A stretch of 64,000 nucleotides of DNA from Scilla litardierei (taxonomy: Eukaryota > Streptophyta > Magnoliopsida > Asparagales > Asparagaceae), in the NCBI GenBank assembly GCA_030789695.1, contig CM061130.1:8299860-8363859 (forward strand), in the 5' to 3' direction. The notes beneath the pieces were generated by a model that was given only the letters and a program-made list of their open reading frames with translations, did not search any database and was not told the origin of the DNA. A program made the position numbers and the translations under genes. The stretch's first letter is position 1. Each line of letters begins with the position of its first letter. Of this stretch, positions 14,652-56,288 are shown piece after piece.

Positions 14652-15404
14652 GTATTTGTAATGCCCTACAAGCTACTGCACAAGTACGAGAGGGGGGTGA
14701 ATAGTACTTTAAAAATAACGAGGAGTATAATTCCTAATTATAGTGCAAACAACTACCAAATCAATTTGCGGAAGCTAAAATTGATGACAACAACAAAAAT
14801 AACAATGCTAACAAAAGATGTTACTGGGTTTGGATCCACCCAAGTCTCTTCGACTTGTTCCCGGTGATCCTACGTCCCAACCACCCGGATCCCCTCCGGA
14901 TACTTGAGTTAGAAACCCTAACTCAAGATTTCCACTATGATATCTTGTGAAAAACCTTCACAAGATCAAATCATACAAGCAATGGCAATAGTGAATCCCA
15001 CAACCCGGGATCACAACCTTCTCTCACAACCGAGAGAATCAATAAGCAATATAAATGAGTTTATAATGAAATAAACAATGTTACCACAAAATCCTATACC
15101 TTGAGTTTTCTTACCAAATAGATGCAAGGAGTGATTTGTGAAAGATGAAGTCACCAAGACCTAGCACCACTGAAATGAGCAGCAATGGGTGCCTAGGAGT
15201 GATTTGGAGACTTGAATCAAGCTAGAGCTTGAAGGGCTCACCAAGAACAAACTTCTCTCAAGATGGATTCTAGATCTAGAAAGTGAGAGAATGGATTTCT
15301 TGTGAGGAAGAGAGCTTTGGAAATGAGTGAGAATCACTATCTCTTTCAATCTCAATGAATATCTTAATGGCAGCTCTAACCTAGAGAGAAATGACCAAGG
15401 TTCG

Positions 15405-15412
15405 TATTTATA
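15405..15412 (-). promoter_or_regulatory. TATA box, Copia left LTR
   Basis: TATAAATA on the minus strand in the context CCCTATAAATACG. The same box is at 48197-48204 in the right (5') LTR, which drives genomic RNA. The palindromic array ends 55 bp upstream. Confidence 0.7.
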
Positions 15413-15466
15413 GGGTCCCATAAAAACGAGTTAGGTCAAATCCCAACGGTTAGAAATCTGAAGCAA

Positions 15467-16006
15467 CTAGTCGGTCAAAGAACAACCACTGACCGACTAG
15501 TTCATCAAATAGTCGGTCAGTCAAACAACATGGACCGACTAAGTGAGGAACAGTGAAGAGATAGAATTTCAGACCTAGAAATCTAGTCGGTCCAAGAAGA
15601 CTCTCTGACCGACTAGTTTCACAACTAGTCGGTCGGTCAGTGAACTTCGACCGACTAAGAGTCAAAAACAAATAGTCTGAATACAAATTGATTTAGTCGG
15701 TCCAAGAACAAATGTTGACTGACTAGATTATCAACTAGTCGGTCACCAAACGTTCTTAGACCGACTAACGATAAACAATAACTCAGGAGAAAATTAGCAT
15801 GAACAGTAAAGCTCAACTAGTCGGTCAAAGAAGCATCACTGACCGACTAGTTCACAAACTAGTCGGTCGGTGAGTCAACGTAGACCGACTAATTGTAAAC
15901 AGTACTGAGCAAGAAAAGATTAACTCAAACTAGTCGGTCCAAGAAGCTTTGCTGACCGACTAGATCACCATCTAGTCGGTCAGTTCTTCTTCTTGAACCA
16001 ACTAAC
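15467..16006 (-). promoter_or_regulatory. Palindromic array upstream of Copia LTR promoter
   Basis: Five units of about 115 bp. Each has two hairpins of the form TAGTCGGTC-N14-GACCGACTA. Adjacent hairpins meet around a CTAG, so the ideal unit core is ACCGACTAGTCGGT. Spacer sequences vary between units and some arms carry single changes. About 20 half-sites in total. The same array, with matching spacers and some downstream sequence, occurs in the LTR of Gypsy-C. Position just upstream of the TATA box suggests an enhancer; that role is inferred. Confidence 0.75.
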
Positions 16007-16407
16007 ATGCACGAACAAGTCCGAATCGAAGCGCGATGCTTCGAGGAAGTTAGAATGGACTTCTACTAAGATCCTAGAGCTACGATATGAGCGTTATGAA
16101 GATAGAATTGTAAGATATACTCAAGGCTTAACATTCTATAGATCGAAGCTAAAAGACTATAAATAAAACCTTAAGAAACGGTCTTCGAGAGCTTCGATCA
16201 ATTCTTCATGACTTCCAAAACGGTCCAAAAGCTTCAACGAAGCTTTAGGCAATGAATACGAGCTTTGAGAAGTCTTGAGATGTTGCTTTGATTGTTCTCG
16301 TGAATTTGGCGACTATCTCCAATACTGCGCTCAGAAATTGTTAGTTTATGAATTATTTATGTTTGCTCATCATCCAAAACCAAATCCGGGGAGTCCAATA
16401 TTCAACA

Positions 16408-16423
16408 TTCTCCCCCTTTTTGG
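16408..16423 (-). promoter_or_regulatory. Polypurine tract, Copia
   Basis: Minus-strand CCAAAAAGGGGGAGAA directly abuts the 3' LTR start and would prime plus-strand DNA synthesis. Confidence 0.85.
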
Positions 16424-17357: not shown

Positions 17358-18870
17358 TCACGAGTAAGTGGCAGGATCAGCAGTCTCCGGGGGTCCAGTC
17401 GAGGGAGTGGACTCAGGCTCTGCTGCGAGGAGAGGCGTGTCAACAGACGGGATCGTCGGGGCAGGAGTGGAAACAGCGACGACTGGCTCAAAGGCTAGGG
17501 TATCAACAGGAACAACAGCAGGCAGATCAGGAGCAGGGTCGTCAGCAGGAGCAGCAGCAGCATCAGAAGTCTGATCCACTGGTGCAGAAGTCTCTGGAGC
17601 ACCGGTAGAGGTGCCAGCTCCAGGAGCAGATGTGGTAGCAGCAGCAGCAGCAGTGGCCTCAGCGCCACGAGCTAAGGAGGTAACAAGCTCATCAATATCC
17701 TCATCATCCATCTCCTCATCCTCAGAAACAGGAGGAGGAAGGTGAATGCCCATCAAACTCGCCATACGGCAAACTACCTCCTCGGTACGAGCCAAACGAG
17801 ACTCGTGCCGACGAAGTAACCGGACGACATCATCAAGTGTGGTGGTAGGAGGAGGGGCAGCAGCAGCTGAAGGTGTGGCCTGGGATGTAGAAGGAGTCGA
17901 CCGCTGCACGTGACGGAGTGCCGCAAGAGATTTCTTGACGGCCGTCGCATTCAGGGGAGGACCCAGGGGACGCTCATCATCCGAAGGCAAAGGAACACCA
18001 AATCGACGGAAAACCAAGGTCAGAAGATAAGGATACGGGATGTGTGCAGATTTAGTGGTCTTGCGAATACACTCGAAAGAGTCCATCTTGTCGAGTATAA
18101 TGCGAGCCCAATTAATCTCGCTACCCATGAAAAGAGCGTATATCAATTTCAGAAATGGCTGAGACGGAAGAGAAGAAGATCCATACTTGGGCAGAAGGTA
18201 GGATTTCAAGATCAGGTTAATCACCCAAGCATTCGGCTTGAATGATTTGGAAGGGACGCCTATGAAAGCAGGGGGGATAACCTGGAAGATTTTAGCTAGG
18301 GTCCGCTGATCGAGGGAGGAGATATTGTCTACAGAGATGTCAGACGGGAGGAGGCCACACGATGAGCAGCCTATCAAATCCCCCAAGATCTCTGCCGTGA
18401 GGACTACCGGAGTCCCCAAAACAGAAGTCTCGATGGAGTGAGTCTCATTGTACTGACCCCGGACACGATTGGCATAGAAGAGCTTGACCAGGCGAGGATA
18501 GGGTCGTGGGTTCGCCTTAGGGTCAAATCTAAGGTAGTCCAAAAGTCCACTATAGGATAACAGATCCGCAAGGCCAAGAAAATCAGAAAACTGAACGTAA
18601 TGCTCCAACAGTAGTGGGCAATGCTCTATACGGTTGTAAGCCGCTAGACACTGAGGGTCGTCGCGACACAACGATATATCTATACCGCCTACTGGCATCG
18701 GGCCTTTACCCTTAGCCTTACGGGTCTTAGGAGGAGGTGGAGGAGGGGGTGGAGTAGGTGCCTTCTTGGGATGTTCAGGAGTGTACTCTTCCTCGGAATC
18801 ATCCTCGGAGTCACTATCTGAACGCTCACCGGGAGGGGTAGGTGCACGGAACTTTTTGGGCTTGGCTTTG
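17358..18870 (-). pseudogene. Copia third ORF, C-terminal part (extra 3' ORF, SIRE 'env-like' position)
   Basis: About 504 codons, the larger part of an ORF of about 566 codons whose first 64 codons lie at 31096-31288 beyond the LARD-like element. After an acidic Ser/Asp/Glu and poly-Pro segment comes a globular domain of about 220 residues with RLVKLFYANRV, LTAEILGDLIGC and KLIYALFMGSEI. This resembles the 'putative plant transposon protein' domain (Pfam PF20167 type) common in third ORFs of large plant LTR elements. An Ala/Pro/Thr-rich low-complexity tail follows. No signal peptide or membrane helix is evident, so an envelope role is not supported by the sequence. Removing the insert and one CTTTG copy restores the frame (1701 bases). 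Confidence 0.7.
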
Positions 18871-27125: not shown

Positions 27126-27252
27126 CCCTAAATATTGTAAGCTAATTTGTTTTCTTTTAAATTTTGGCTTTGAAAAAAAAATTTCGCGGAACAAAGATTT
27201 CGCAAGGGAAAATCTTAAATGAACCGTGCCCGCGGGCACGGGTTATGACTAG

Positions 27253-28229
27253 TATATATATATGTTGGAGTGGTAGTGGTATATGTATGAATGCCGTGTT
27301 ACGTATATAGAATATTCTGATATGTGTATTGAGTCTCACTCAAGCTTGAGTGGGTATACTCTAAGTATATTGAATGTAAGTTGTAGTTTGAATATATCAA
27401 TGTTTGATGTATGTATAGTGATAGGAGTGTTGTGCCTGGTTGTGCTACGCACATGATTGTGGGTCGCTACGCCAGTATATAGTTATAGGTGTTGGTCTTG
27501 TGGTATAGCTAACTACTAAGGACTTGCTCGTGTGAACGTATGTGTACTAGCTAAAACTAGGTGTGTTTGTGTGCTAGTTATATAATGGTACGATTGGTGT
27601 ATGTAAATGAAATGTTAGCGTGTATGGGTGTGCACCATGCACGGGTAAGTATGTGCTTAGTTATAGGAATTGATGACTACGATATATGTGGCGTGTCGTA
27701 AATACAGTTATAGGACCGTATGTGATGAGAATATATGGTGAACTATTTGCATGCACTGTATGACTATATGTTGTGAAATTATAGTAGTGGTGAATGTATA
27801 TTAAATATAGTGAACTTGATTTAATAATGGTATGGTGTGACTATATGTGTTGAGATGTTTGGTATTGGACGAATATTAGAGGGTAGTATACCCTTGATGT
27901 TTGTGCATAGGTAGCTATCTATACGTAGAGCAATGATTGTATTTGCTAGTATGAGATCATACCTATATAAGTATCTGAACTATTGTTTTGTGTGTAGCAG
28001 TTATATAAGGGATGCATGTTTATATATACCTGATTGAAATACATGTATGAAGTTGACGGACTATAATAGGTATTAATGTATAACGTACGTGAATGTAGAT
28101 ATATACGTGTTGGTAGTAATAATGTTTGACTACCTAGTGCATATATACGCACTTGTAATGACTATACCTGGTTGAATTATTATATGACTTGATTGGGGTA
28201 GTTACTAGAGCGACTAGCTATATTAGAAA
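27253..28229 (+). other. LARD-like internal region, right part (non-coding)
   Basis: A TATGTG/TAGTA-rich sequence continuing that found left of the Helitron. No gene or similarity seen. Confidence 0.7.
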
Positions 28230-28264
28230 GTCCGAGGACGGACTTTATTCTAAGGTGGGGAGGA
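28230..28264 (+). promoter_or_regulatory. Pre-PPT hairpin and polypurine tract, LARD-like element
   Basis: The inverted repeat GTCCGAGGACGGAC (28230-28243) is followed by AAGGTGGGGAGGA abutting the 3' LTR at 28265. Gypsy-C and Gypsy-A have the same hairpin layout, TTCCGAGGACGGAA in coding sense. Confidence 0.8.
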
Positions 28265-31095
28265 TGTAACGACCACTTTTCGTGGTACGTTGTTCGTGCA
28301 CGTGCTTTGTCCGTGCACGTGTTTGTTTTAGACTTTGTTCGTTTGTGAACACTTTCGTGTGATATGCCGTTGCGAACGTCTCTGAGAATATTAAATAGTG
28401 GCACTATTTTGGAACGACGTTTCTCGAGTCGTTTTCCCACAATTTACACTTACTCGATGAGACGTGACGATTCTCACTCTTGACGGGAGACGTTTCTATT
28501 TTTAGTCTCGTCGTCCGACGTCGAAATCGAGATCCGTCTTCTTAGTTAGCTCACATTCGTCTTCACGATCACCACGATATTTATTTTATAATTTTTGGAG
28601 TTTATTTGACCACTTTTATATTTTTAACAAGTTTTATATTATTTTTAATAATTAATTTTTAAATTATTTGCGGCCAAATAAAATTTATTTATGTTTTAAA
28701 CGTTTTAAAGAATTTTTGAGCCAATTTCCAGCTCATTTGGACCAAGTCAAATCCTTGGGTGAGTTGGAGAAGTTGAGATTTAAATTTTAAATTATTTTAA
28801 ACTTCTAATCCTATTAGATTTAGCCCTAGACCAAGTCAACCCATCTATACTATATAAGCAACCCCTAGGAAGACCTATTTTCGCAAGAAATTAGCCCTAG
28901 CCTCTTCCAAAACTCAGATTTGACGTTGCGACGATTCGTCGCAACGTTGCGACGTTCAGCCACCGCAGCGACCGAAGGAAACGGCCCCGTTCCCCCGCTC
29001 CGACCGAAGCCCCACCCCGCATCCAAGCGCTCCGCATCGCTGCAGCCGCTAGCCGCTCCGTTCCATCGGTCTGACCGAGGGATTGGCCCGCACCAAGCAG
29101 CTCCGCATCGCAGCACAGCTTTCCGCACCGTCGCCCGCTTGTCGCTCCGCTCCGCAGCCCGCACGACCGACCCGCTGCTCCGCACCGACCGCTGTTGCGA
29201 GCGCTGCAACGTTGCAACGCTGCCCCGCCCCGCATCCAAGCGTCTGACCGAGGCTCTCGACCGGTCTGACCGATAGGAACCCTCGCACCAAGCCTCGCCC
29301 CGCAGCCGCTGCACACCCCAACGTCGCAGCCCCCGCATTTTGAGCGCACGACCGAGAGATTCCCCCGCATTGGCTGTGTACGACCGATGGCCATTCGTCG
29401 CAACCCCGCATCCGTCGCACCGCTTGCCTCCGTGGGCCCCCCAAGTTCTCCAGAGTTATTGTGGGTCCCTCAAAGGCCCCTAGGACTACTGTGGGCCCCA
29501 CCTAGGTGCTTGCTCTTTGAGGATTCGTCGCGTACGACGTCGTCGCACGTCGTAGCCCGTCGTCGCACGTGCGAGCTTTGGAATCTGGAATCGTCGCCCC
29601 GGTCGATTGCTCTGAAATTTCCAGCGAGGAATCTAATTGGAATCTGGACTTGGAGCGCGATCTTTTATTCCAACCCCCGGCGTCGCTACCCGACGCCGGT
29701 GTAGCTTTCGCGTCGTGTTGAGGTAACGTTTTGCACCCCTAGGACCCCCAACCAAATTGCATGCTAATCAAGACTAAAATCAGTATTTTCAAAGTATTTT
29801 AAATGTTTTAAATTCACTAATGAAGATTAATAATATGGACTTTAGGCCGGTGGACTTGTGCACGTAGAATAATTGTGATTTTCGGACTCATTGGACGGTG
29901 TGCTCAGACGTCGCACTTGCAGGCAAGTGAAACTTGCCAACTCTTGTGTAGGGCCATGTTTTTAGGCCACTTCCTTGCTTTTAGCGTAAAAGAGACTAGT
30001 CAGTGAAATGATAGCTGGCTAGACGCCTACTTGATCTAGTTTGACAACGAAACTAGATCCGTCACCTAAATGATCTAGCTTGACAACGAAGCTAGATCCA
30101 ACCCTTAAACTTGTCATCCATGCATGCTAAACTGTCACGTTTACTTTTCTTACTTGTACTCTTTACTACTTGTCATGCCATGTCATCCATGCATTGATTG
30201 TTGCATCGTAGCACACGCTACAATACTTGTCCTCGTACTACTTGTCCGGCTAGGTGCACCCCTACGCCATACTTGTTTACACACTTCCTGGCTCGTGGTC
30301 CAGAAGCGAGCATTCCAAGTTCGGGGGTAAGGCCCTGGCTCGACACACGTGGAGGGGTAGGGATAAACGTTCACTTGAGCTTAGGAGTGGCCTGATCAGC
30401 CCTCTAGCCAAAAGACAGAATCTCTGTGCACGAGGTGCTTACTTTTCTTGTCTTGTACTTGTCTTGTGAATGCCATGCCATGCTCGTACTTTACTTTACT
30501 TTACTTTACCTGCTGCACTCATACTTTAACTGCCGTGTCATTGCATCATGCTAGAACTGCTAGGTTGCTCTTACTTGTACTTTCAGTTTCACTTGCACAA
30601 GTCTTCCAGACTTGCTGACATGTGCCCCTTGCTCTTTTGGGTGTCACATGTTAGACCCTGAGCCAGAGACCGTTGCTGAGTACGTGATGTTTTGCTGACG
30701 CTGAGTCTGAGTCCATGATTGCACAGGAGGATTTTGGTGGACACCGGTGACCATTCTTTGAGTCTTTGTTGAGCTTTATTTTGCTTTAGGCCTTTTGTTA
30801 GTTGGTGCGTAGCACCGTTGTTTTGTACTTTGTACTTTTGTTGGCCATGTTTGGGCCTTTAGTCTCTTTTTCTTTTAGCCTGGTGGCTTTTCTGCGATGT
30901 TGGAATTATATTTATGGATATTCTGAGATTATTCTTTTGTCTCATTTCATTATTATTATCTTGTTTCGCTCGCGTTGCAAGGACCTGCAGTTTTAAATTT
31001 GATTGACGCTTATCGGACTTGCAGCTTTGTAGCTTCAAGTCTGAGCGGGCCTTCTCACGCTTCGCCTCCATATTTTTGGGAAGCGGGGCGTGACA
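28265..31095 (+). repeat. LARD-like element 3' LTR
   Basis: 2831 bp. It matches the 5' LTR except for about eight scattered substitutions and a 3-bp deletion near 30803. It carries the same TATA box, GC-rich palindromic block and GTGACA end. Confidence 0.92.
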
Positions 31096-31288
31096 CTTTG
31101 GGCTTGGAAGACTGGCCGGTAGGTTTGGGCTTGGATGTCCTCTTCCTCTTCAACGGTGTTGAAGACGAAGAGGGGGGACGAGTGGTCTTGGCCCTACGCT
31201 TAGGTGGGGTCGAAGCAGTCGCGGCCTCTATGGTCATGGGGGATGCCCTAGAAGAGGTAATCGGGATTCTCGTTCTTGCCATGATCAC
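31096..31288 (-). pseudogene. Copia third ORF, N-terminal part
   Basis: First 64 codons of the extra Copia ORF. The start is ATG at 31288, with a second ATG two codons later. It is basic and Ser/Thr/Pro-rich (KRRAKTTRPPSSSS, LKRKRTSKPKPTG), resembling a nuclear-localisation or nucleic-acid-binding tail, though that is a guess. It is cut at 31096 by the LARD-like insertion; the remainder is at 17358-18870. Confidence 0.7.
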
Positions 31289-31574: not shown

Positions 31575-31960
31575 AACCGACTAGAATGCAAAACGATCGG
31601 ATAGAATTGGTATAAGTCGGTCGGGATTGCGAAAAGATGTGATTGCCCTAGAGCACTTAGTCGGTCACAGTTCAAGCACTGACCGACTAGATTACGATCT
31701 AGTCGGTCGGTCAATGAGCTTAAACCGACTAAGTCGAAACAGAGGCAAAACGAAAATTCTAGGGCTAGAGTTAGTCGGTCACAGTTCAATAACTGACCGA
31801 CTAGTTTTCAATCTAGTCGGTCGGTAAGAGAACTGCGACCGACTAAAAGAAGTCAATGACAAAGGAAAGTTCAAGCTTGAACTAGTCGGTCGGAGTTCAC
31901 TAGCTGACCGACTAGATGAGCATCTAGTCGGTTGGCTGATGAACTGAAACCGACTAGAAG
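31575..31960 (-). promoter_or_regulatory. Internal palindromic array upstream of Copia third ORF
   Basis: About three units of the same TAGTCGGTC/GACCGACTA hairpins as in the Copia LTR, with single outlying half-sites at 31575 and 31616. It lies between pol and the third ORF, about 290 bp upstream of the third-ORF ATG. A promoter role is inferred from its place next to the TATA box in the LTRs. Confidence 0.65.
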
Positions 31961-32306
31961 AGTCCAAAAGTTGATAAAAAGTTCTCTCCATGAAATACTT
32001 GGACGAAACATCTTAACCCTCTCATAAGTCATCTAAACTACCCCATAAAACATCGAAATCTCAAATATTCAAATAAGAATTCGAGCAAAAATTCAAACAT
32101 ATCACATAAAATCCCGAAAAATTCAAGAAGTCTAGCATGACGAAATATTGCGAAATATAATAGCATGCAAGATAATTGAATGAAACATGAATCCTATATC
32201 TCGGATTCACCCATAATCCCTAATTCTCGACGCAACCACACAAAGGAGTCCTCCTTTAGGGGTTTCGTGAAAATATCGGCGATTTGCTTTTGGGTTTCAA
32301 CGTACA
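31961..32306 (-). other. Copia pol 3' end after frameshift, and spacer
   Basis: Beyond the frameshift near 32320, another frame on the minus strand continues the conserved RNase H C-terminus ([17 protein letters not shown] around 32250-32300) to a stop near 32195. The rest, down to the array, is AT-rich spacer. Confidence 0.7.
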
Positions 32307-35306
32307 CTAATATGATGTCCTTTTAGCAACATGATCATCTAAAAAATGGTGTCGGCCATCTATGTGTTTAGATCGGGAATGGTGCACCGGATTCTTTGAA
32401 AGACAAATAACACTTTGGTTATCCACCATGATAGGGCTAGTATCACAATGGATACCAAAATCCTTCAGTGTGTGTCTCATCCAAAGAACCTGGGCACAAG
32501 CGGCACCGACGGCAATGTATTCCGCCTCGGTGGTTGAAAGTGATACCGAATTTTGCTTCTTGGAAAACCAAGAGACAAGGGAATTTCCTAGAAAATGGCA
32601 AGTGCCACTAGTACTCTTCATGTCGGATTTGCATCCCGCATAATCAGCGTCACTATATGAGACTAACTCATATGTGCTAGATTTCGGATAAAGTAATCCA
32701 AAATCTAAAGTGCAACTTAGATAGCGAAAAATACGTTTTACCGCTACTAAGTGAGAATCCTTAGGTTGAGACTGATAACGAGCACAAATACAAACGACAA
32801 ACATGATATCGGGCCTACTTGCGGTAAGATAAAGTAAACTACCTATCATACCTCGATATAGACGAATGTCTACATCTTTTCCGCCCGTATCTTTATCAAG
32901 ATGCGTTGTAGTGCTCATATGAGTCTTTTTCCCGGAGGCATTCTCCATTCCAAATCGCTTTAGCAACTCCACCATGTATTTCGTTTGGTGGATGAAGATT
33001 GCATTGTTCAATTGGCGAATTTGGAGACCTAAGAAATATTTGAGTTCGCCCATGTGGCTCATCTCAAATTGTTCCTTCATAACATTAGAAAACTCTTCGC
33101 AAAGAGTGAAGTTAGTAGCACCGAAAATGATATCATCAACATAAATTTGAACTAATAAAATATCATTATTCGCATGCTTAACAAAAAGTGTAGAGTCGGC
33201 TTCGCCCATTTTAAAATTCAAATCCAGAAGAAAATTCTTTAGGCGATCATACCAAGCTCGAGGAGCTTGTCTCAAACCATAAAGAGCTTTTTTTAGTTTA
33301 AAAACATGATTTGGAAATTTTTCATTTATGAAGCCCGGAGGTTGAGAAACGTAAACTTCCTCAACGACATCTCCGTTTAAAAATGCACTTTTAACATCCA
33401 TTTGAAATAATTTAAAATTTTTATGGCATGCAAAAGACAATAATAGTCTAATTGATTCTAATCTAGCTACCGGAGCGAAGGATTCTTCGAAATCGATACC
33501 TTCCTCTTGTCGATAGCCTTGAGCTACTAACCGAGCTTTGTTCCGAACGACGACTTGGTTTTCGTCGGTTTTGTTCTTTAAGATCCACTTTGTCCCTATG
33601 ACGGTGTGGTTCTTCGATGGCAAAGGAACAAGCTCACATACCTCATTCCTCTCGAATTGAATGAGTTCCTCATCCATGGCAAGGATCCAAGCACTATCTT
33701 CGCACGCTTCAACTATATTCTTTGGCTCTATCGATGAGGCAAAGGCACAATTGGCGAAGTGGTGGACTTGCGATCTCGTCTTGACTCTATCATGAATATT
33801 GCCAATGACTTGCTCATGGGGATGGTCGCGAACGGTATGAAGCCGCTTGGGAATACCTTGATCACTAGGTACATTCTCAACAACTTCATTAGTCGGGTTA
33901 GTATCAATAGAATCAATTGAATCAATAGACTTAGAATTTTCAAACGAATCACATAAAACATCCATAGAATCATCATCATTTGAAATTCTAGAAGTAGTAA
34001 AATTCTCATTAAAAGAGACATGTAGTGATTCCTCGATCGTAGAGGATCTTTTGTTGTATATCCGGTAGGCTTTGCTACGTGAGGAATACCCAACAAATAT
34101 CCCCTCATCCGATCTCGGATCAAACTTGTCCAAATTATCATATGTGTTTTTAATAAAACATTTTGCGCCGAAAACACGAAAATGTTTAACTTGAGGCAAT
34201 CTACCAAACAACAATTCATAACAAGTTTGTTTAGTGCCGGGCCTCAAAAGTATTCTATTAAACACATAACAAGCGGTGTGTACCGCTTCCGCCCAAAATT
34301 GATAACCAAGTTGACTATCTTCGAGCATAGTGCGAGCACACTCCACAAGCGTTCTATTCTTCCTCTCAACAACACCATTTTGAGGAGGTGCGCGAGGGAA
34401 AGAAAACGTGTGAGTAATTCCAAGATCATCACAAAAATTTGAGAAAGACTCATTCTCAAATTCACCCCCATGATCACTACGAATAGTGACAATGGTGGTT
34501 CCGATGAGATTTTGTACTTTCTTCACAAATATTGTGAAATTTTCAAAAGCTTCATTTTTATTACATAAGAAAAATACCCATGTAAATCTAGAATAATCAT
34601 CGACGATGACAAGTCCATATCTTGCATTTCCTAAGGAAGCAACTCTAGTTGGCCCAAATAAATCTAGATGTAATAGCTCTAATGGCCGTTTAGTAGAAAT
34701 GCTTTTCTTAAGTTTAAATGAAGATTTAGGAAGCTTGCCACGTTGACAAGAATCACAAGAACTTTTCTTTTCAAAAACGAGCTTCGGAAAACCTTTAATG
34801 GAATTTAATTTTGAAAGCTTATAAAGTGTTCCAAAGTTCACATGTCCAAAGCGTCGATGCCATAAGTGTTGTTCACTTGTGTTGGCAACGAGACATTGTT
34901 CATATGACTTAGGAAGATCCAAAATATAAATATCTTTATGGCGTGTGCCGGAAAATAATAAATCATTATTATCATTTGAAATATGACACAATCCTTTCGC
35001 AAAGCTAACTTTGTAACCTTTGTCACAAAGTTGGCTTATTGAAATAAGATTATAATTTAAACCATTAACTAGATAAACATCACTAATTAAGGGTTTAGAT
35101 GGGTTACCCACTTTACCAACACCGACGATGGTTTCGCTCTCGTTGCCTCCAAATACGACGCGGTTTCCATTTGCAATGGGAACTACTCCGGAGAGCAATT
35201 GAGCGTCACCCGTCATGTGTTTTGAACACCCGCTATCGAGTATCCAATTCCCTTTGGAGCTAAATTTAAATTTGTTGCTCCTTTTCTTTTTCTTTTCCTT
35301 GAGTAC
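32307..35306 (-). CDS. pol: Copia pol: protease, integrase, reverse transcriptase, RNase H
   Basis: An open frame of about 1000 codons. The aspartic protease active site DSGC is at 35226-35237 with [13 protein letters not shown] context. The GAG-pre-integrase HHCC finger (LWHRRFGH then CDSCQRGK) follows. The integrase core has Asp in HLDLFGP, Asp in RSDHGGEF and Glu in VVERKNR. RT (RVT_2) runs from WILKNK with [16 protein letters not shown] and the catalytic YVDDIIFG. RNase H has YSDADYAG and [10 protein letters not shown]. The order integrase-RT is diagnostic of copia. A frameshift after DDHVAK removes the last 40 or so residues. It is in the same frame as gag but separated by four stops between 35363 and 35307, so suppression or defect must be assumed. 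All catalytic residues are present. Confidence 0.93.
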
Positions 35307-37626: not shown

Positions 37627-39530
37627 AATGTAATGCCCTACAAGCTACTGCACAAGTACTAGAGGGGGGGTGAATAGTACTTTAAAAATAACGAGGAGTA
37701 TAATTCCTAATTATAGTGCAAACAACTACCAAATCAATTTGCGGAAGCTTAAATTGATGACAACAACAAAAATAACTGTCACGACCCGCTTCCCTAAAAT
37801 GGAGGCGAGACGTGAAAAGGTCCGCACGAGAGTGGAGCTGTGAAGCCCCAAACCCGATAAGCGTCCACAATACATAAACAGGTCCCTGTAACCACAACAG
37901 AATGACAATAATAACACAAGGCGAGACTGAAATAAAATTCACATCTCAAACATTGTCCAACAAGAAAATAAATCCAACATCCAGAAAAGCCACCAAGCTA
38001 AAAGAAAAGAGTCTAAAGGCCCAGAACAAGGCCAACAAAGAAACGACATAACAAAGATATAGGTGCCACGCACCGAATACAAAACAACTGTCTAACAAAA
38101 GTAAAACACACGAAGACACTAGGACTGGTCCCCAGTGTCCACGTACTCCCCGTCGAACACAAGCTCGGGCTCGACGTCAGCAAACACCTCGTCCTCAACG
38201 AGGTACTCGGGCTCAGGATCTAACATGTGTCACCCAAAAGAGTAAAGGGGCACATGTCAGCAAGTCTAAAAGACTTGGGTAAGGAAACTGAAGGTAAGGC
38301 AACTAGCAACCTAGCAGTTTAGTATGCATGGCATGGCAGTTATAACATGAGTGCACAATTTAAAACATGGCAAGACAATTTGCACAAGGGAACAATTTAT
38401 CGGGACAAGACAAGAGTAGCCAAGCTACTATCAATTCAATCAATTCACATTTTGTGGGTGTTTAAGCCCTTCGCTGAATGGCATAGCATTTCAGACCGAT
38501 CGGCACTAAACACTACCCAATACCCACACGATATGGAGCCTGGGGTCCCCGCACATTGAGCTCAGCTAGTGAGCCTGAGGTTGCCCCGCACATTGAGCTC
38601 GCATTCTTAGTTCACAATTCAATATATCGAGCGTTGGGGTTTCCAACTCATTATGCTCGCTTCTGGTCACGAGCCAGGAACACAAGTATGGCGTAGGGAA
38701 CACCTAGCCGGAACACGCAATCCGGGCATTGGCTATCAACCAACACATGGCCCGCTTCTGGAACACGAGCCAGGTACACAACATTGTAGCGAAGCTACGC
38801 AATCACAGCAATACCTAAAGAATGCGAGGTCATGACAATTTATTTGTGTACCGTTAATTAAATTAAACGTGACAGGCGAAATGCAATGACATGAACATAT
38901 TCGCGTACCGTTAATTGAAAGTAAACATGACATGGTAATTGTGCAACATGCTAAAAGTCGGAACTAGCTTCGTTGTCAAGCTAATTCCCCAATTTGCGCC
39001 TAGGCGAGTATCATTTCGTCGCCTAGCCTCTTTTACGCCTATAACAAGAAAATGGCCTAAAACATGGCCTAAATCCTAAGTGGCAAGTTTCACTTGCCTA
39101 GCACCGGGGGTGACGACCACTTCGTCACACGGATGCTATCTATGGGAAAATCGCTGTTATGGGGAAACATACAACAAACAACATGAAATTAATTAGGGTT
39201 GTCATAAAATTATAAATAGGTTAAGAAAACAACGGTAGAACGATTTATTACCAAGAGGAGACGGAAGAAACACTCCGGGGAACCCTAGGATCAAATCTGG
39301 AGAAGATTGGAGAAGATTGGGGAAACTAGGGTTTTGGAGGATTTGGGGATTTTGATGGGTTTTGGTGAGATTTTGGGGAAGATGAGGGGTAGATGGAGTG
39401 AATGGAGGGTTTGGATGATGATTCTAGGGCTTGGAATGGAGAAATGGAGCTTGGAGGAAGATGGGGGCTGAAGGGGGAAGTTTTTAGGGTTTTGGGTCGT
39501 GTTGGAGAAGATGAAGTCGTTTGGGAGGGG

Positions 39531-39538
39531 TATTTATA
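39531..39538 (-). promoter_or_regulatory. TATA box, Gypsy-C left LTR
   Basis: TATAAATA on the minus strand (context CCTATAAATACCCC), 45 bp downstream of the palindromic array. The identical box is at 46853-46860 in the 5' LTR. Confidence 0.7.
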
Positions 39539-39582
39539 GGTTGGGCTGGCGGCTGCCCAGAAATTAGGGTTTTAACACTGGT

Positions 39583-39999
39583 TAGTCGGTCAAAGAGCAA
39601 CCACTGACCGACTAGTTTGGCAACTAGTCGGTCGGTCGACCAACGCAGACCGACTAAGTGCAAACAGTAACTCCTGAACGAAAATAGGATTCTAGAGTTA
39701 GTCGGTCCATGAACAAGTACTGACCGACTAGTTTAGCATCTAGTCGGTCGATGAACGTTCTTAGACCGACTAAGCGTAAACAGTAGCTGATACAAAAATA
39801 ATATGATGAGTTAGTCGGTCAAAGAAGCATTGCTGACCGACTAGTTTGCAACCTAGTCGGTCAACCAACGTTCTTAGACCGACTAACGATAAACAGTAAC
39901 TCCTGAGAAATTTAGAAAGCTAACTAGTCGGTTCAAGAAGGATTGCCGACCGACTGGATCGTCATCTAGTCGGTCGGTGGCCCTTCTTACACCGGCTAA
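39583..39999 (-). promoter_or_regulatory. Palindromic array in Gypsy-C LTR
   Basis: Four units of TAGTCGGTC-N14-GACCGACTA hairpins. Spacers match those of the Copia LTR array closely (for example AAAGAGCAACCACT here and AAAGAACAACCACT there), and similarity continues for about 100 bp beyond the array. The second copy is at 46904-47320. Confidence 0.8.
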
Positions 40000-40268
40000 T
40001 AAGCACAGAAAGTTCCGATACGGAGCGCGAGGCCCCGGGATCGATTCCTAAGACTTCTAGGCTTGATCTAACAGTAAGATACGACCGTTATGAAGTCCGT
40101 TACGAGTGACATACTTCGAAATCGACGATCCTAAGGAAGAAACGAGAAATCACGACGAAACGATCGAAAATGAAAGCTACGGAGACGAAAACCACACATG
40201 AGGAGAAAATCCACCAAAACTTATATTATATAATATTATATCTAGATACAAGAAAAGCGGTCGTTACA

Positions 40269-40303
40269 TCCTCCCCAACTTAAGAAAAATTCCGTCCTCG
40301 GAA
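40269..40303 (-). promoter_or_regulatory. Polypurine tract and pre-PPT hairpin, Gypsy-C
   Basis: Minus-strand AAGTTGGGGAGGA abuts the 3' LTR. The inverted repeat TTCCGAGGACGGAA lies at 40290-40303, eleven bases beyond the pol stop codon. Confidence 0.82.
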
Positions 40304-40314
40304 TTTCCAAAAAC

Positions 40315-41217
40315 TCACGAGTCCGGAAACAAAAGTGGGAAACGCTCTCGCATCTCATCCTCATTCTCCCAAGTAGACTCTCCAGGTGAACCGTGTCGCC
40401 ACATCACCCTCACAAGATTGACAATCTTGTTCCGAAGCGATTTCTGACGCCTGTCCAGAATCTGCACTGGATGCTGGTCATACGTCATATCGGGGCGAAC
40501 GGTAATCTCCGAAAAATCCACCGCATGAGACGGATCACTAATGTATCGACGAAGTTGCGACACATGGAAAACATTGTGAACTCCTTCCAAAGATGGCGGC
40601 AAGGCCAATCGATAAGCTACCTCGCCAACCCTCTCCAAAACATCAAATGGTCCAATGTATCGCGGGCTCAACTTTCCACGCTTCCCGAAACGAATCACAC
40701 CACGATTCGGGGAAATCTTCAAGAACACATGGTCGCCCGGCTGAAACTCCAAAGGACGACGTTTAGCATCCGCCCAATGCTTAAAACGGTCCTGAGCAAT
40801 TCTCAACCTCTCCCGAATATTCCTGACGATATCCACGGCCTCCACGATCATCTCAGGTCCCAACAACTCCCGATCACCAACGTCATCCTAACTCAATGGC
40901 GATCGACATTTCCTCCCATAAAGAGCGGCGAAAGGCGCCATGCCAATACTCGCCTGGAAGCTGTTATTGTAAGAGAACTCCACCAAATGCAAATGGTCCT
41001 CCCACGAACCCTTGAAATCCAACATGCACGCCCTCAGTATGTCTTCCAAAATCTGAATCGTCCTCTCGGACTGGCCATCCGTCTGCGGATGGTACGCCGT
41101 GCTGAAACTCAGACGCGTACCCAAGCTCTTCTGCAAACTCTGCCAGAACTGAGAAGTGAACCTCGTGTCTCTGTCAGACACGATACTCACGGGGACTCCA
41201 TGAAGTCGCACAACCTC
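40315..41217 (-). CDS. pol: Gypsy-C pol, 3' exon: integrase core end, SH3-like segment, chromodomain
   Basis: It starts just after the putative 71-bp intron. It carries the second catalytic Asp ([10 protein letters not shown]) and the Glu (GQSERTIQ) of integrase, then the C-terminal SH3-like segment ([12 protein letters not shown] to [10 protein letters not shown]), and ends with a chromodomain ([32 protein letters not shown]) that in chromoviruses steers integration to heterochromatin. A TAG at 40888-40890 replaces the Trp of the conserved SPLSWDD motif. Stop at 40315. Confidence 0.88.
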
Positions 41218-41288
41218 CTGCACGATTCACGTTACATCACTACCCAAACTAGGAAAGGAAAATAAAACGGAGAGTAAAAGAATTTTAC
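41218..41288 (-). other. Putative 71-bp intron in Gypsy-C integrase
   Basis: A T-rich GT...AG segment (donor ATGGAG/GTAAAATT, acceptor CGTGCAG/GAGG), phase 0. Removing it gives the uninterrupted Tyr-Met-Glu-Glu seen at the matching place in Gypsy-A (12610-12650). Kept in the RNA, it brings a stop within the insert, separating the first catalytic Asp from the other two catalytic residues. Confidence 0.65.
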
Positions 41289-43708
41289 CTCCATATATCT
41301 CCTCGCTAGCGCCTCAGTGGACTGTCCCACTCGGAACGGAATAAAGTGCGCAGATTTGGTCAATCGATCTACGATCACCCAAATCGCGTCATTCTGTTTC
41401 GGACTCCGAGGCAGTCCAGTCACGAAATCCATAGTGATGTGCTGCCACTTCCACTCCGGAATCGGAAGCGGTTGTAGCAACCCGGCCGAACGCTGATGCT
41501 CCGCCTTCACTTGCTGGCACACCAAGCACTTGGCTACACTCCGAGCCACGCTCCTCTTCATACCATGCCACCAATAATTCAGACGAAGATCCTGGTACAT
41601 CTTGGTGCCACTAGGATGCACAGAATACGGCGAACTGTGTGCCTCCACCATCAGCTCCTCTCTGATATCCCCAGCAGGCACACACAACCTGGCTCCAAAC
41701 CTCAGCGAGCCATCCTCATGAATCAAAAAGTCAGTCCGCAGACCGGCTTCCACCTGCTCCCGAATCCTCACCAGCTTCGGATCCTCAGCCTGGCCAGCCT
41801 TAATCCGATCCACGATCGTCGACTGTACCTGCATGTACATCAACGACGAAGCCTCTCCAGGAAGAACAATCTCCACGCCAGACTCGCAAAAATCCTGCTG
41901 CAATCTCCACTGCGAGGTCAAAATCAACACCGCCGGAAGCCTACTCAAAGCATCCGGAACCACATTCACCTTGCCAGGGTGAAACTGCAAATCAATATCA
42001 TAATCCGCCATAAGCTCCAACCATCGACGCTGTCGCATGTTAAGCTCCTTCTGAGTGAAAATATACTTCAAGCTTTTGTGATCGGTGAAAATCTTCACTT
42101 TCTCACTCAGCAGGAAGTGCCTCCAAATCTTAAGAGCAAACACAACGGCAGCCAACTCCAAATCATGCGTCGGGTAATTCTTCTCATGAACCTTAAGCTG
42201 ACGAGACGCATACGCCACAACGTGCCCGTGCTGATGCAACACACAACCGAGACCCTTGCCAGAAGCATCGCAAAAGATCTCAAATCCACCGCTGCGATCA
42301 GGCACAACAAGAATAGGGGCAGTCGTCAACCTCTCCTTCAGAATACCAAAAGCACTCACACAATCACCCGACAAAACAAAAGCAACATCCTTCCGCGTCA
42401 ACCTGGTCATCGGCTCAGCAATACGAGAAAAGTCCTTAATGAATCGCCAATAATAACCGGCAAGTCCAAGGAAACTCCGAATCTCAGACGCCGACGACGG
42501 AACAGGCCACTCCCTGATGGCCCGAACCTTCTCGGGATCCACTGAAATACCATCTCCAGTCACCACATGCCCGAGAAAAGCAACTCGATCCAGCCAAAAC
42601 TCGCACTTCGAAAACTTAGCATACAACCGATGCTTCCTCAAAATCTCCAACACCGTCCTTAAGTGCGAGGCATGCTCTTCCTCCGACTTCGAATAGATCA
42701 GAATGTCGTCAATAAAGATAACGACAAACTTATCCAAAAAGTCGTAGAAAATCAGGTTCATCATATTCATGAAAACTGCGGGCGCGTTAGTTACGCCAAA
42801 AGGCATAACCACGAACTCATAGTGTCCATACTTCGTCCTGAACGCTGTCTTCGGAACATCTCCCTTCTTCACCTTCAACTGATGGTAACCACTCCTCAAA
42901 TCCAATTTAGAAAACACCCTCGAACCTCCAAGCTGATCAAAAATATCATCGATGCGAGGTAACGGGTATTTATTCTTAATGGTCACCGCATTCAACTCCC
43001 GATAGTCCACGCACATGCGACACGAACCATCCTTCTTCTTAACCAACAACACCGGTGCTCCCCACGGAGACACGCTAGGATTAATATAACCCTTCTGCAA
43101 AAGATCGTCCAACTGCTTCCACAACTCTTCCAACTCAGCAGGTGCCATACGATACGGCGCCTTCGAAATCGGCTGCGCACCTGGAACAAGATCAATAGAA
43201 AATTCCAAAGCTCGATCAGGCGGCAAACCAGACATCTCCTCGGGGAAGACGTCGCCAAAATCACGCACCACAGCTGGCCACTCCAGCTCCATCTGCATAG
43301 CCACAGCCTCCACCGGCCTGGCCCGAAATCTGACAGGACCAAGCGAACTGCTACCACGACTGAACTCAAACACTGGATGTCCGGGAATCTCGAACACCAC
43401 CTTCTTCCTCCGACAGTCGATCGTAGCATAGAAGCTCGCAAGCCAGTCCATCCCAAGAACTGCATCATAGTTGATGATGTCGTGGACAATGAAATCAGCG
43501 AAAAGCTCATGTCCACAGACCACCAACGGGCAAGAATTGCAACCACGATGCACCGAGACCACACCATTCCCTGTAACGATATTCCAACTCTTGGGAAGAG
43601 GGGACGTCGACAAGGAATGCCTCTCCACGAAGCTCCGAGAAATAATGCACATCGATGCACCAGAGTCAAAGAGGACTCGTGCAGGAAATGTGCAAACCAA
43701 AATCACAC
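41289..43708 (-). CDS. pol: Gypsy-C pol, central exon: protease, RT, RNase H, integrase N-terminus
   Basis: About 806 codons uninterrupted by stops. The protease active site LFDSGAS lies near 43670, with VLGMDWLA later. RT has [24 protein letters not shown] and the catalytic [10 protein letters not shown]. RNase H has [17 protein letters not shown] and FTDHKSLKY. The integrase zinc finger ([26 protein letters not shown]) is followed by the first catalytic Asp in TMDFVTGLP. No usual ATG opens this exon; the frame is entered from gag through the putative intron, where the first codon is split after one base. All catalytic residues visible in this exon are intact. Confidence 0.92.
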
Positions 43709-43822
43709 CTAATCAAGCAATTAACAATCAAACCCTAATCTAGAAAACAAGCAAGTTCAAGCAAACAACATAATCTAGCAATCAAGACCAAATAGGAAAG
43801 TAACAGCTAGATTGAGGATTAC
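43709..43822 (-). other. Putative 114-bp intron at gag/protease junction, Gypsy-C
   Basis: A T-rich GT...AG segment (donor ATCGTAG/GTAATCC, acceptor TTGATTAG/GTGTG), phase 1. If unspliced, the gag frame stops within it after about 15 codons (ending PIWS), giving Gag alone; if spliced, Gag continues into protease without frame change. Gypsy-A has the same intron position and phase. Confidence 0.75.
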
Positions 43823-44954
43823 CTACGATAACCTCATCCACAGCCTCGCTCTCCACAGCGGTCATCAGAAAAGCCTGCCTCCTCGGCGGAACAGCCTGCC
43901 GAAAAGCCTGCCTCTGCGGAACAAGAGCTGCTCCACGTCCAGCAGGAACAGGCACTCGCTGCTGCAACGGCTGTGCTGCAACAGGAGCCCTCCGCAGCGG
44001 ATCCGCATGCCGACAATCCTTCGCAACATGAGAAGCATCACCGCAAACCAGACACTAGCCCAGAAACTTCCGGCACTGATCCTTGACGTGACCAGGCTTG
44101 CCGCAGAAATGGCAAAACTTCAGAATAGACCCTCCTGGCCTCTTAAACTGAGCAGACTGATTAGGCCTGAATCCAGGTCTAACCACAGCTCTCGCCTGTT
44201 CCACAGGCCTCTTCCCAGCACCAACAACAGACCCCTTCCTCTGGTTCACAAGCAGCTCCTGCCTCTTGGCAGCGACCAGAACCTTCTGATAAGACTCTCG
44301 GTCAGAAGAGGTCACAAAACTCTGGAGCTCCGAAGCAAGCCCCTGCAGGAACCTCTAAGCTCTCTCCTCAGCGTCCTGCACCATCTTTGGTGCAAACCGA
44401 CTCAGCCTCATGAACTCTTGGTGATACAAGTCCACCGACGAGTTCCCCTGCTTCAGATCGATAAAACGCTGCAGCATCTCCTCCTTGGCAGCCTTCGGGA
44501 AGAACTCACCCTCAAATCTGGTCTTGAAGGTAGCCCAAGCTATCGGCTCCACCAACATCTTCTCTTCCGCATCCCACCAATTCCTGGCGTTATCCTTGAG
44601 CTGCCTCTTCGCCAAATCAACCCATCCAGCCGGGGTGATCTTGGCCATCTTCAGATTGTCCTCGATGTTCCGAATCCACTCATCGGCAGCCAGAGGACCC
44701 TCAGAACCATCAAAATATGCGGGACCCAGCTCCCGAAATTGCTTCGCTCCTGGCTCAGAGCGAGGGGCATCCGGAAGAGCCCGGGCAGCTCGAGCAAGCG
44801 GAGCATTCTGGACTTGCAAAAGCACGCCATGCTGCACTTGCATCATCTGCAGCATCATCCGCATCATCTCACCGCTGGTGGGTTCCAGCTCAGGCTCCTC
44901 ATCATGAGGGAGCGCACCACTACCCCCACCACGGGTGAAACGCCTTCCTGCCAT
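43823..44954 (-). pseudogene. gag: Gypsy-C gag with two amber codons
   Basis: 377 codons from ATG 44954. Residues about 70-200 form the Retrotrans_gag capsid domain (AYFDGSEGPLAADEW, DNARNWWD, LYHQEFMRLSRFAP). The zinc knuckle CHFCGKPGHVKDQC is near residues 280-293, and a second, CLVCGDASHVAKDC, follows. The C-terminal tail (RRQAFLMTA, ESEAVDE) matches that of Gypsy-A. TAG codons at 44355-44357 and 44055-44057 interrupt an otherwise unbroken frame. ATG 44954 is the first in frame after the leader and begins MAGRRFTRGG. Confidence 0.85.
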
Positions 44955-45073
44955 CTAATGACACAGAGAACGAATCAGATTAGACTCATAGCTTATGACT
45001 CGGACGTCGAACTTAATCTATTGGACATTCTAATATTATTATCGTCATTCCAAACATCGCAGTTACAGAAGGA
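44955..45073 (-). other. Gypsy-C leader between primer site and gag
   Basis: A short non-coding leader. The part with GACGTCCGAGTCATAAG and TGAGTCTAATCTG matches the LARD-like leader. An acceptor-like TGTCATTAG directly precedes the gag ATG. Confidence 0.7.
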
Positions 45074-45089
45074 CCTGCATGGGCCACCA
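45074..45089 (-). promoter_or_regulatory. Primer-binding site, Gypsy-C
   Basis: Minus-strand TGGTGGCCCATGCAGG, eight bases inside the 5' LTR end at 45098. Confidence 0.7.
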
Positions 45090-45097
45090 CTAAAACC

Positions 45098-47590
45098 TGT
45101 CACGACCCGCTTCCCTAAAATGGAGGCGAGACGTGAAAAGGTCCGCACGAGAGTGGAGCTGTGAAGCCCCAAACCCGATAAGCGTCCACAATACATAAAC
45201 AGGTCCCTGTAACCACAACAGAATGACAATAATAACACAAGGCGAGACTGAAATAAAATTCACATCTCAAACATTGTCCAACAAGAAAATAAATCCAACA
45301 TCCAGAAAAGCCACCAGGCTAAAAGAAAAGAGTCTAAAGGCCCAGAACAAGGCCAACAAAGAAACGACATAACAAAGATATAGGTGCCACGCACCGAATA
45401 CAAAACAACTGTCTAACAAAAGTAAAACACACGAAGACACTAGGACTGGTCCTCAGTGTCCACGTACTCCCCGTCGAACACAAGCTCGGGCTCGGCGTCA
45501 GCAAACACCTCGTCCTCAACGAGGTACTCGGGCTCAGGATCTAACATGTGTCACCCAAAAGACTAAAGGGGCACATGTCAGCAAGTCTAAAAGACTTGGG
45601 CAAGGAAACTGAAGGTAAGGCAACTAGCAACCTAGCAGTTTAGTATGCATGGCATGGCAGTTATAACATGAGTGCACAATTTAAAACATGGCAAGACAAT
45701 TTGCACAAGGGAACAATTTATCGGGACAAGACAAGAGTAGCCAAGCTACTATCAATTCAATCAATTCACATTTTGTGGGTGTTTAAGCCCTTCGCTGAAT
45801 GGCATAGCATTTCAGACCGATCGGCACTAAACACTACCCAATACCCACACGATATGGAGCCTGGGGTCCCCGCACATTGAGCTCAGCTAGTGAGCCTGAG
45901 GTTGCCCCGCACATTGAGCTCGCATTCTTAGTTCACAATTCAATATATCGAGCGTTGGGGTTTCCAACTCATTATGCTCGCTTCTGGTCACGAGCCAGGA
46001 ACACAAGTATGGCGTAGGGAACACCTAGCCGGAACACGCAATCCGGGCATTGGCTATCAACCAACACATGGCCCGCTTCTGGAACACGAGCCAGGTACAC
46101 AACATTGTAGCGAAGCTACGCAATCACAGCAATACCTAAAGAATGCGAGGTCATGACAATTTATTTGCGTACCGTTAATTAAATTAAACGTGACAGGCGA
46201 AATGCAATGACATGAACATATTCGCGTACCGTTAATTGAAAGTAAACATGACATGGTAATTGTGCAACATGCTAAAAGTCGGAACTAGCTTCGTTGTCAA
46301 GCTAATTCCCCAATTTGCGCCTAGGCGAGTATCATTTCGTCGCCTAGCCTCTTTTACGCCTATAACAAGAAAATGACCTAAAACATGGCCTAAACCCTAA
46401 GTGGCAAGTTTCACTTGCCTAGCACCGGGGGGTGACGACCACTTCGTCACACGGATGCTATCTATGGGAAAATCGCTGTTATGGGGAAACATACAACAAA
46501 CAACATGAAATTAATTAGGGTTTTCATAAAATTATAAATAGGTTAAGAAAACAACGGTAGAACGATTTATTACCAAGAGGAGACGGAAGAAACACTCCGG
46601 GGAACCCTAGGATCAAATCTGGAGAAGATTGGAGAAGATTGGGGAAACTAGGGTTTTGGAGGATTTGGGGATTTTGATGGGTTTTGGTGAGATTTTGGGG
46701 AAGATGAGGGGTAGATGGAGTGAATGGAGGGTTTGGATGATGATTCTAGGGCTTGGAATGGAGAAATGGAGCTTGGAGGAAGATGGGGGCTGAAGGGGGA
46801 AGTTTTTAGGGTTTTGGGTCGTGTTGGAGAAGATGAAGTCGTTTGGGAGGGGTATTTATAGGTTGGGCTGGCGGCTGCCCAGAAATTAGGGTTTTAACAC
46901 TGGTTAGTCGGTCAAAGAGCAACCACTGACCGACTAGTTTGGCAACTAGTCGGTCGGTCGACCAACGCAGACCGACTAAGTGCAAACAGTAACTCCTGAA
47001 CGAAAATAGGATTCTAGAGTTAGTCGGTCCATGAACAAGTACTGACCGACTAGTTTAGCATCTAGTCGGTCGATGAACGTTCTTAGACCGACTAAGCGTA
47101 AACAGTAGCTGATACAAAAATAATATGATGAGTTAGTCGGTCAAAGAAGCATTGCTGACCGACTAGTTTGCAACCTAGTCGGTCAACCAACGTTCTTAGA
47201 CCGACTAACGATAAACATTAACTCCTGAGAAATTTAGAAAGCTAACTAGTCGGTTCAAGAAGGATTGCCGACCGACTGGATCGTCATCTAGTCGGTCGGT
47301 GGCCCTTCTTACACCGGCTAATAAGCACAGAAAGTTCCGATACGGAGCGCGAGGCCCCGGGATCGATTCCTAAGACTTCTAGGCTTGATCTAACAGTAAG
47401 ATACGACCATTATGAAGTCCGTCACGAGTGACATACTTCGAAATCGACGATCCTAAGGAAGAAACGAGAAATCACGACGAAACGATCGAAAATGAAAGCT
47501 ACGGAGACGAAAACCACACATGATGAGAAAATCCACCAAAACATATATTATATAATATTATATCCAGATACAAGAAAAGCAGTCGTTACA
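45098..47590 (-). repeat. Gypsy-C 5' LTR (right copy)
   Basis: 2493 bp, matching the left LTR at about 99.3% by eye. Palindromic array at 46904-47320, TATA at 46853-46860 (minus). Confidence 0.92.
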
Positions 47591-49204
47591 ATAACAATGC
47601 TAACAAAAGATGTTACTGGGTTCGGATCCACCCAAGTCTCTCCGACTTGTTCTCGGTGATCATACGTCCCAACCACCCGGATCCCCTCCGGATACTTGAG
47701 TTAGAAACCCTAACTCAAGATTTCCACTATGATATCTTGTGAAAAACCTTCACAAGATCAAATCATACAAGCAATGGCAATAGTGAATCCCACAACCCGG
47801 GATCACAACCTTCTCTCACAACCGAGAGAATCAATAAGCAATATAAATGAGTTTATAATGAAATAAACAATCTTACCACAAAATCCTATACCTTGAGTTT
47901 TCTTACCAAATAGGTGCAAGGAGTGATTTGTGAAAGATGAAGTCACCAAGACCTAGCACCACTGAAATGAGCAGCAATGTGTGCCTAGGAGTGATTTGGA
48001 GACTTGAATCAAGCTAGAGCTCGAAGGGCTCACCAAGAACAAACTTCTCTCAAGATGGATTCTAGATCTAGAAAGTGAGAGAATGGATTTCTTGTGAGGA
48101 AGAGAGCTTTGGAAATGAGTGAGAATCACTATCTCTTTCAATCTCAATGAATCTCTTAATGGCAGCTCTAACCTAGAGAGAAATGACCAAGTTTCGTATT
48201 TATAGGGTCCCATAAAAACGAGTTAGGTCAAATCCCAACGGTTAGAAATCTGAAGCAACTAGTCGGTCAAAGAACAACCACTGACCGACTAGTTCATCAA
48301 CTAGTCGGTCAGTCAAACAACATGGACCGACTAAGTGAGGAACAGTGAAGAGATAGAATTTCAGACCTAGAAATCTAGTCGGTCCAAGAAGACTTTCTGA
48401 CCGACTAGTTTCACAACTAGCCGGTCAGTCAGTGAACTTCGACCGACTAAGAGTCAAAAACAAATAGTCTGAATACAAATTGATTTAGTCGGTCCAAGAA
48501 CAAATGTTGACCGACTAGATTATCAACTAGTCGGTCCCCAAACGTTCTTAGACCGACTAACGATAAACAATAACTCAGGAGAAAATTAGCATGAACAGTA
48601 AAGCTCAACTAATCGGTCAAAGAAGCATCACTGACCGACTAGTTCACAAATTAGTCGGTCGGTGAGTCAACGTAGACCGACTAACTGTAAACAGTACTGA
48701 GCAAGAAAAGATTAACTCAAACTAGTCGGTCCAAGAAGCTTTGCTGACCGACTAGATCACCATCTAGTCGGTCTGTTCTTCTTCTTGAACCAACTAACAT
48801 GCACGAACAAGTCCGAATTGAAGCGCGATGCTTCGAGGAAGTTAGAATGGACTTCTACTAAGATCCTAGAGCTACGATATGAGCGTTATGAAGATAGAAT
48901 TGTAAGATATACTCAAGGCTTAACATTCTATAGATCGAAGCTAAAAGACTATAAATAAAACCTTAAGAAACGGTCTTCGAGAGCTTCGATCAATTCTTCA
49001 TGACTTCCAAAACGGTCCAAAAGCTTCAACGAAGCTTTAGGCAATGAATACGAGCTTTGAGAAGTCTTGAGATGTCGCTTTGATTGTTCTCGTGAATTTG
49101 GCGACGATCTCCAATACTGCGCTCAGAAATTGTTAGTTTATGAATTATTTATGTTTGCTCGTCATCCAAAACCAAATCCGGGGAGTCCAATATTCAACAG
49201 TATT

Positions 49205-56280: not shown

Positions 56281-56288
56281 TATTTAAG
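56281..56288 (+). promoter_or_regulatory. TATA-like box, Athila-like 5' LTR
   Basis: TATTTAAG followed by TTTCTAGGGTTTTTGAGGG. The counterpart in the right LTR is at 59093-59100. Confidence 0.5.

Follow-up and report, generated by a model that had tools for sequence, protein, structure and literature searches.

How one palindromic promoter array came to lie at equivalent positions in the LTRs of two unrelated retrotransposons is the question raised by this window, by which we mean the whole stretch of 64,000 nucleotides that was analysed. We consider it likely that the array belongs to a Sirevirus-type U3 enhancer module that is common by descent to a Sirevirus and a chromovirus-type Ty3/gypsy lineage of the same genome. 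Five arrays of TAGTCGGTC-N14-GACCGACTA are found within the window, two in the gypsy element gypsy-C, two in the LTRs of a copia element and one in internal copia DNA, together giving 42 unit matches at up to three mismatches as compared with none in 100 shuffles. Both elements are read on the minus strand, and the LTR arrays thus lie upstream of the TATA box TATAAATA. They occupy U3 of the gypsy-C 3′ LTR (39583..39998, minus strand, 8 units at up to three mismatches), its twin in the gypsy-C 5′ LTR (46905..47320, minus), U3 of the copia 3′ LTR (15468..16004, minus) and its twin in the copia 5′ LTR (48260..48796, minus).

This arrangement bears out an earlier, sequence-only reading in which arrays of hairpins were placed upstream of the TATA box in both LTRs. 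The gypsy-C TATA box (TATAAATA, 39531..39538, minus) is 45 bp from the array, exactly as that reading had it, while the copia TATA box (15405..15412, minus) is 56 bp away rather than 55. The matching spacers and flanks that it quoted (GGAGCGCGA/GAAGCGCGA and GACCGTTATGAAG/GAGCGTTATGAAG) are also present in the sequence. Its 'ideal core' ACCGACTAGTCGGT has no contiguous copy in the window or in a further 200 kb, because the spacers keep the half-sites apart, and it overlooked the fifth array, which lies at about 31657..31974 (minus; 31658-31956 by unit matches) between pol and an extra ORF of the copia element. The motif consists of mirrored 9-bp half-sites with spacers of 14 and 10 bp and few exceptions (132 and 71 counts), in groups that are 39-42 apart. 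Each module holds 15 to 23 half-sites at fixed spacing, and the first and last array units are alike between copia and gypsy.

The two host elements belong to different superfamilies, as had been proposed. The copia element has the Pfam domains RVT_2 (5e-78) and Retrotran_gag_2 (6.9e-25), with integrase and RVT_2 in one ORF (32307..35306, minus), whereas gypsy-C has RVT_1 (1.8e-36), RVP_2 and a gypsy gag, with protease, RT and RNase H in one ORF (41232..43712, minus), along with a chromodomain (Chromo, 9.4e-5) that at 22.7 bits falls just under the curated cut-off of 25.1. The chromovirus-type gypsy-C (37777..47590, minus) sits inside the copia 5′ LTR with a 5-bp target duplication, ATAAC, and splits that LTR into 37629-37776 and 47591-49199 (minus); the copia 3′ LTR spans 14657..16407 (minus; target duplication AATAC). 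A second gypsy element, which is array-less (18871-31095, flanked by CTTTG), sits in the copia extra ORF. This ORF occupies the ENV position and is cut by the nested gypsy into a first piece that is basic and NLS-like by eye (31100..31282, minus) and a second with a Transposase_32 (PF20167) domain (17358..18869, minus). In self-comparison, the LTR pairs are 98.5% alike for copia, 99.3% for gypsy-C and 99.6% for the array-less gypsy. We further note tandem repeats of about 77 bp each within the array-less gypsy (24210-26273), a 1.2-kb LTR pair (96.6%) with 1.6 kb between, probably non-autonomous (56000-60028), and a fragment of gypsy pol with about 70% likeness to the pol protein of gypsy-C (10684-13311, plus strand).

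Similarity between the superfamilies extends beyond the arrays. Upstream of the first arm, the two are alignable over approximately 130 bp, and this leader lies at 39999..40106 (minus) in gypsy-C and at 16005..16111 (minus) in copia, with the far edge approximate in both. Local alignments of the leader across superfamilies, for which three of seven copia and five of eight gypsy sequences were taken, score above the best of 300 shuffles in 15 of 15 cases. Leader identity across superfamilies is 0.53-0.76, as compared with 0.29-0.43 in the columns further upstream (L047, whose first detected arm is set further inside, is not part of these figures). On the promoter side the similarity stops, by eye, at the last arm, after which copia continues with CCGTTGG and TATAAATA, and gypsy with AAACCCTAA, AGCCGCC and TATA. 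We take the copia CCGTTGG to resemble a mitosis-specific MYB site, and the gypsy AAACCCTAA and AGCCGCC presumably resemble the telobox and the GCC box. The claim that a regulatory module is shared, rather than the whole LTR by descent, is well supported by the homology of leader and array and its absence from the LTR further upstream, and the core promoters after the array, which differ by eye, are in line with sharing of the module only. Target duplications were not noticed at the module edges in the leader alignment. A search for the leader in 13 array-less LTRs (several mutually related) found it in none of them, with one of 91 scores passing its 100 shuffles, at 29 versus 28; ahead of the internal copia array it was likewise not detected. 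The module would run from the leader of about 130 bp through the 15 to 23 half-sites, and its boundary would be the last of these, beyond which each element has a core promoter of its own.

As an exact match, the self-complementary unit has 481,387 occurrences in the 3.68-Gb genome, as compared with none for the reversed pattern. (The assembly has thirteen chromosome-sized contigs, C1-C13, of which C13, at 825 Mb, is more than twice as large as the next.) We placed 26 arrays, made up of the five in the window, three in L041/L042, eight in a 200-kb stretch (C1:1-200000) and ten picked for unusual spacers; among these only the 200-kb stretch is an unselected sample. Thirteen arrays fall in chromovirus-type gypsy LTRs, nine in copia LTRs, four in copia internal DNA and none elsewhere. 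In the unselected stretch, all eight arrays are in four of the 15 detected LTR pairs, which are related to gypsy-C to varying degree, and the array is absent from the other 11. Of the ten arrays with unusual spacers, three are in gypsy LTRs, five in copia LTRs and two in the internal DNA of copia elements. Isolated arms in the 200 kb form 17 groups of fewer than four arms, with no excess over a hand-estimated chance level of about 40. Genome-wide, GACCGACTA-N35-65-TATAWAWA, which places the array upstream of TATA, matches 29,635 times (reversed pattern 800), and TATAWAWA-N35-65-TAGTCGGTC, which places it after TATA, 7,177 times (reversed pattern 432); the self-complementary TATATATA may be the source of part of the latter count. 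At C1:8213077 an array is closely followed by TATATAAA, which could be a third arrangement.

By its sequence marks, the copia element of the window is a Sirevirus. The AGGGGGAG PPT octamer is present three times (four times in L042), the terminal one (16410..16417, minus) starting 10 bp ahead of the 3′ LTR. The PBS reads CA/TTTGG/TATCAGAGC, where the five-base stretch is one off the rule CA/ATTGG, and C-runs near both LTR ends correspond to a polyC signal that by rule lies about 21 bp before the LTR end; these rules on multiple PPT octamers, PBS and polyC signal follow the portion of PMC2829016 available to us. The ENV-position ORF with Transposase_32 is counted among the marks as well.

Palindromic boxes are themselves known from Sireviruses. 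As described in the available portion of PMC2829016 (Bousios et al., 2010), these repeated motifs, or RM boxes, occur in 13 Sireviruses and mostly have a CGG-CCG core; they stand in the LTR ahead of TATA and, where an ENV gene is present, ahead of that gene too. In the same account classic copia elements lack the boxes, which are hence called Sirevirus-specific, the comparison covering copia elements only; the sites among the boxes are mainly stress-related, with no single common factor, and the role of the boxes was left open in 2010. The copia array fits this description, with palindromic CGG-CCG repeats upstream of both TATA and the ENV-position ORF, so that, as far as copia is concerned, the finding is already known. 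The gypsy array departs from it in that its host is no Sirevirus, given its RVT_1, RVP_2 and gypsy gag. Two differences from the boxes as presented in that portion of PMC2829016 stand out: the half-sites here are split by 14- and 10-bp spacers and there by a few bases, and array and leader are here also found in Ty3/gypsy LTRs. What is new is the array with its leader in gypsy LTRs. Among titles and abstract openings in an open-access library, no paper was found that describes Sirevirus boxes arrayed in the LTR of a gypsy element, and a literal motif search of open-access papers returned, among the matches listed, titles on unrelated subjects. The maize Sirevirus palindrome CACCGGACNNNGTCCGGTG, which is also the top motif in Helitron annotations (PMC10760457), is likewise found in a second TE superfamily; that likeness is at the motif level, however, and the available text reports nothing on a common flank, a common order within an array or a common place at the promoter.

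The internal array between pol and the extra ORF is also present in L042, L044 and L045, and one exact internal unit is counted 6,589 times. Among 23 LTR pairs hand-picked from the first promoter-site matches listed, 16 span 10.2-10.8 kb; the exact internal unit is present in nine of these, where its distance is 6.45-6.77 kb to the 5′ promoter site and 3.82-4.07 kb to the 3′ one, and absent from seven. The other seven pairs include two longer ones with the internal unit, one of which is the window copia, and five short ones without it. This second Sirevirus array, before the ENV-position ORF, could serve as a promoter or enhancer within the element. At C1:2934650-2939658 and four similar places, the two copia-type promoter sites of a pair are separated by just 5.0-5.4 kb, and these pairs are probably shortened non-autonomous copia copies.

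In this genome it is common for the U3 of an LTR family to carry a palindromic array built from some other motif. A copia-gag family carries CAGTCGACTG (best 8-mer in nine copies, shuffle best four), an Athila-type gypsy ACCGATCGGT (11 versus 4), another gypsy family TCACCCGA (8 versus 3) and two related families of unassigned kind ACTCGGCCGAGT (13 and 14 versus 4). More weakly, a Sirevirus-like copia carries TTAGTCGACTAA (5 versus 4), which recurs close to the Transposase_32 ORF of this element; the same 5 versus 4 is reached, with a different word, by the window's gypsy without an array, and this level is thus near chance. Since other families have palindromic arrays of their own, the array alone is no evidence of transfer, and the case for transfer rests on the leader, the matching end units, the identical half-sites and the fixed spacing. 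Several of these families were located individually. In the LTRs L012, L013 and L027, from related families of unassigned kind (C1:38753-40854, 184668-186694), a TATA-like site is preceded by 13-14 copies of ACTCGGCC/GGCCGAGT, and the Athila-type L019 and L020 (C1:106642-117211) have their own U3 array with 11 copies of ACCGATCG/CGATCGGT. In the Sirevirus-like copia L015/L016 (C1:63797-73364), with a Transposase_32 ORF just under the curated cut-off, TTAGTCGACTAA words are found in the LTR and between pol and this ORF, and no TAGTCGGTC array is found there.

Different origins for the shared sequence can be weighed against this background. Separate insertion of an independent satellite or MITE into each LTR, for which the very high copy number of the unit might speak, appears extremely improbable; all 26 arrays placed belong to two element lineages and have equivalent positions there, none of the 26 is a free copy, and 12 scattered stretches of 2.5 kb, one per contig on twelve contigs, contain no array. 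Independent construction of the arrays in both lineages for the same host factor would agree with the occurrence of palindromic arrays in several LTR families here, but we regard it as very unlikely, given the homology of the leader and the end units and the different motifs of the other families. Movement from gypsy to copia, or from a third source into both, is somewhat harder to set aside and we hold it to be unlikely. Divergence outside the arms is 0.38 between copia and gypsy, close to the 0.32 of pooled gypsy pairs, and the modules therefore do not root the transfer; the leader, occurring only with arrays and in no tested array-less family, gives no direction either. Boxes before both TATA and ENV, however, have been published for 13 Sireviruses, according to the available portion of PMC2829016, and two other copia families nearby use boxes with AGTCG (CAGTCGACTG and, more weakly, TTAGTCGACTAA). 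For these reasons, and with the internal array found only in copia within our sample, transfer from copia to gypsy appears the likelier direction. A Sirevirus U3 enhancer module would accordingly be the one that entered the chromovirus lineage; either template switching between RNAs packaged together or gene conversion among nested copies would suffice for this. Gypsy-C is nested inside a copia LTR here, a setting noted for the gene conversion route.

The pattern of conservation within the arrays suggests how the module may act. Between elements, arms differ at 30 of 1002 positions (3.0%) and the rest of the array at 415 of 1927 (21.5%) in six disjoint hand-picked pairs, outside of which fall three of the 15 arrays so compared; between the LTRs of one element the counts are 6/1170 versus 21/2283. 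These comparisons give a Fisher p of 0.012, and the arm mask, being set by motif resemblance, favours low apparent arm divergence. Pooled arm tests (p 0.015, 0.0007 and 0.0017) reuse sequences many times, and the disjoint pairs are relied on instead. The site is wider than nine bases, in that a pyrimidine before and a purine two after prevail. Since the arms diverge less than the rest of the array, a candidate protein-binding site on double-stranded DNA fits best. Each half-site would be bound in this form and drive transcription from a TATA box about 45-60 bp away; we infer both the binding of an activator to the half-sites and the enhancer activity. The core ACCGAC is presumably the DRE/CRT core of host DREB proteins. 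With one box array in two unrelated lineages that have different core promoters, the genome would offer a natural experiment in which a factor acting on the boxes should act on both. It would matter to the host, too, if about half a million units answered to one activator or formed one target for silencing.

Two other views concern what reads the array. It might act as RNA or as a hairpin, with transcripts folding for packaging or translation, or with small RNAs silencing the element. The arms can pair over short loops, and a small-RNA excess at palindrome clusters in maize Sireviruses is mentioned in the available text of PMC10760457 (citing Bousios 2016). This role has lost weight, and we now think it improbable, because arm changes in 75 distinct units are not compensated beyond chance (three double changes at position 9, about 1.6 expected); moreover, both arms keep one fixed sequence and the constraint reaches beyond them, with spacer ends reading YT at 1,629 of 962,774 ends (two per unit). 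Alternatively, the reader may be encoded by the element, such that the product of the Sirevirus ENV-position ORF, with its Transposase_32 domain and basic N-terminus, would attach to the half-sites and, as VANC does, counter silencing, and array-bearing gypsy elements that lack the ORF would be freeloaders. This would be compatible with a shared module and differ only on what reads it; by analogy we see it as possible, though doubtful. It would be in keeping with the array preceding the ORF in four of four internal arrays, with the constant offset of the internal unit in nine of 16 un-nested full-length pairs, and with the ORF pieces, whose peak 19-residue hydropathy of 1.57 indicates no clear membrane helix. 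Against it, we know of no DNA-binding role for Transposase_32. A tblastn search with the ORF pieces gives no hit within those gypsy elements of the window and the 200 kb that carry the array, as expected of freeloaders. In VANDAL elements, as in the copia element, a short tandem motif (9 bp here, likewise clustered beside the ORF as for VANC21) lies in noncoding DNA of an element with an extra ORF, and VANC6 motifs are also reported in the unrelated AT9TSD1 (available portion of PMC5735166). VANDALs are, in contrast, DNA transposons with another motif, and binding has been shown for VANC, whereas the present likeness is one of arrangement.

A more specific and, in our estimation, still somewhat less likely version is that the ENV-position protein is a nuclear factor rather than an envelope, one that would recognise the half-sites and activate or un-silence the element, and that chromoviruses which captured leader and array ride on it. 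If true, this would be a parasite-of-parasite relation across two retrotransposon superfamilies. Extra ORFs are treated in PMC11728184 and PMC12844716. For the extra ORF of the window, a homologue search with whole pieces found none, and a search by region found 11 Cephalotus PF20167 proteins at 27-30% identity.
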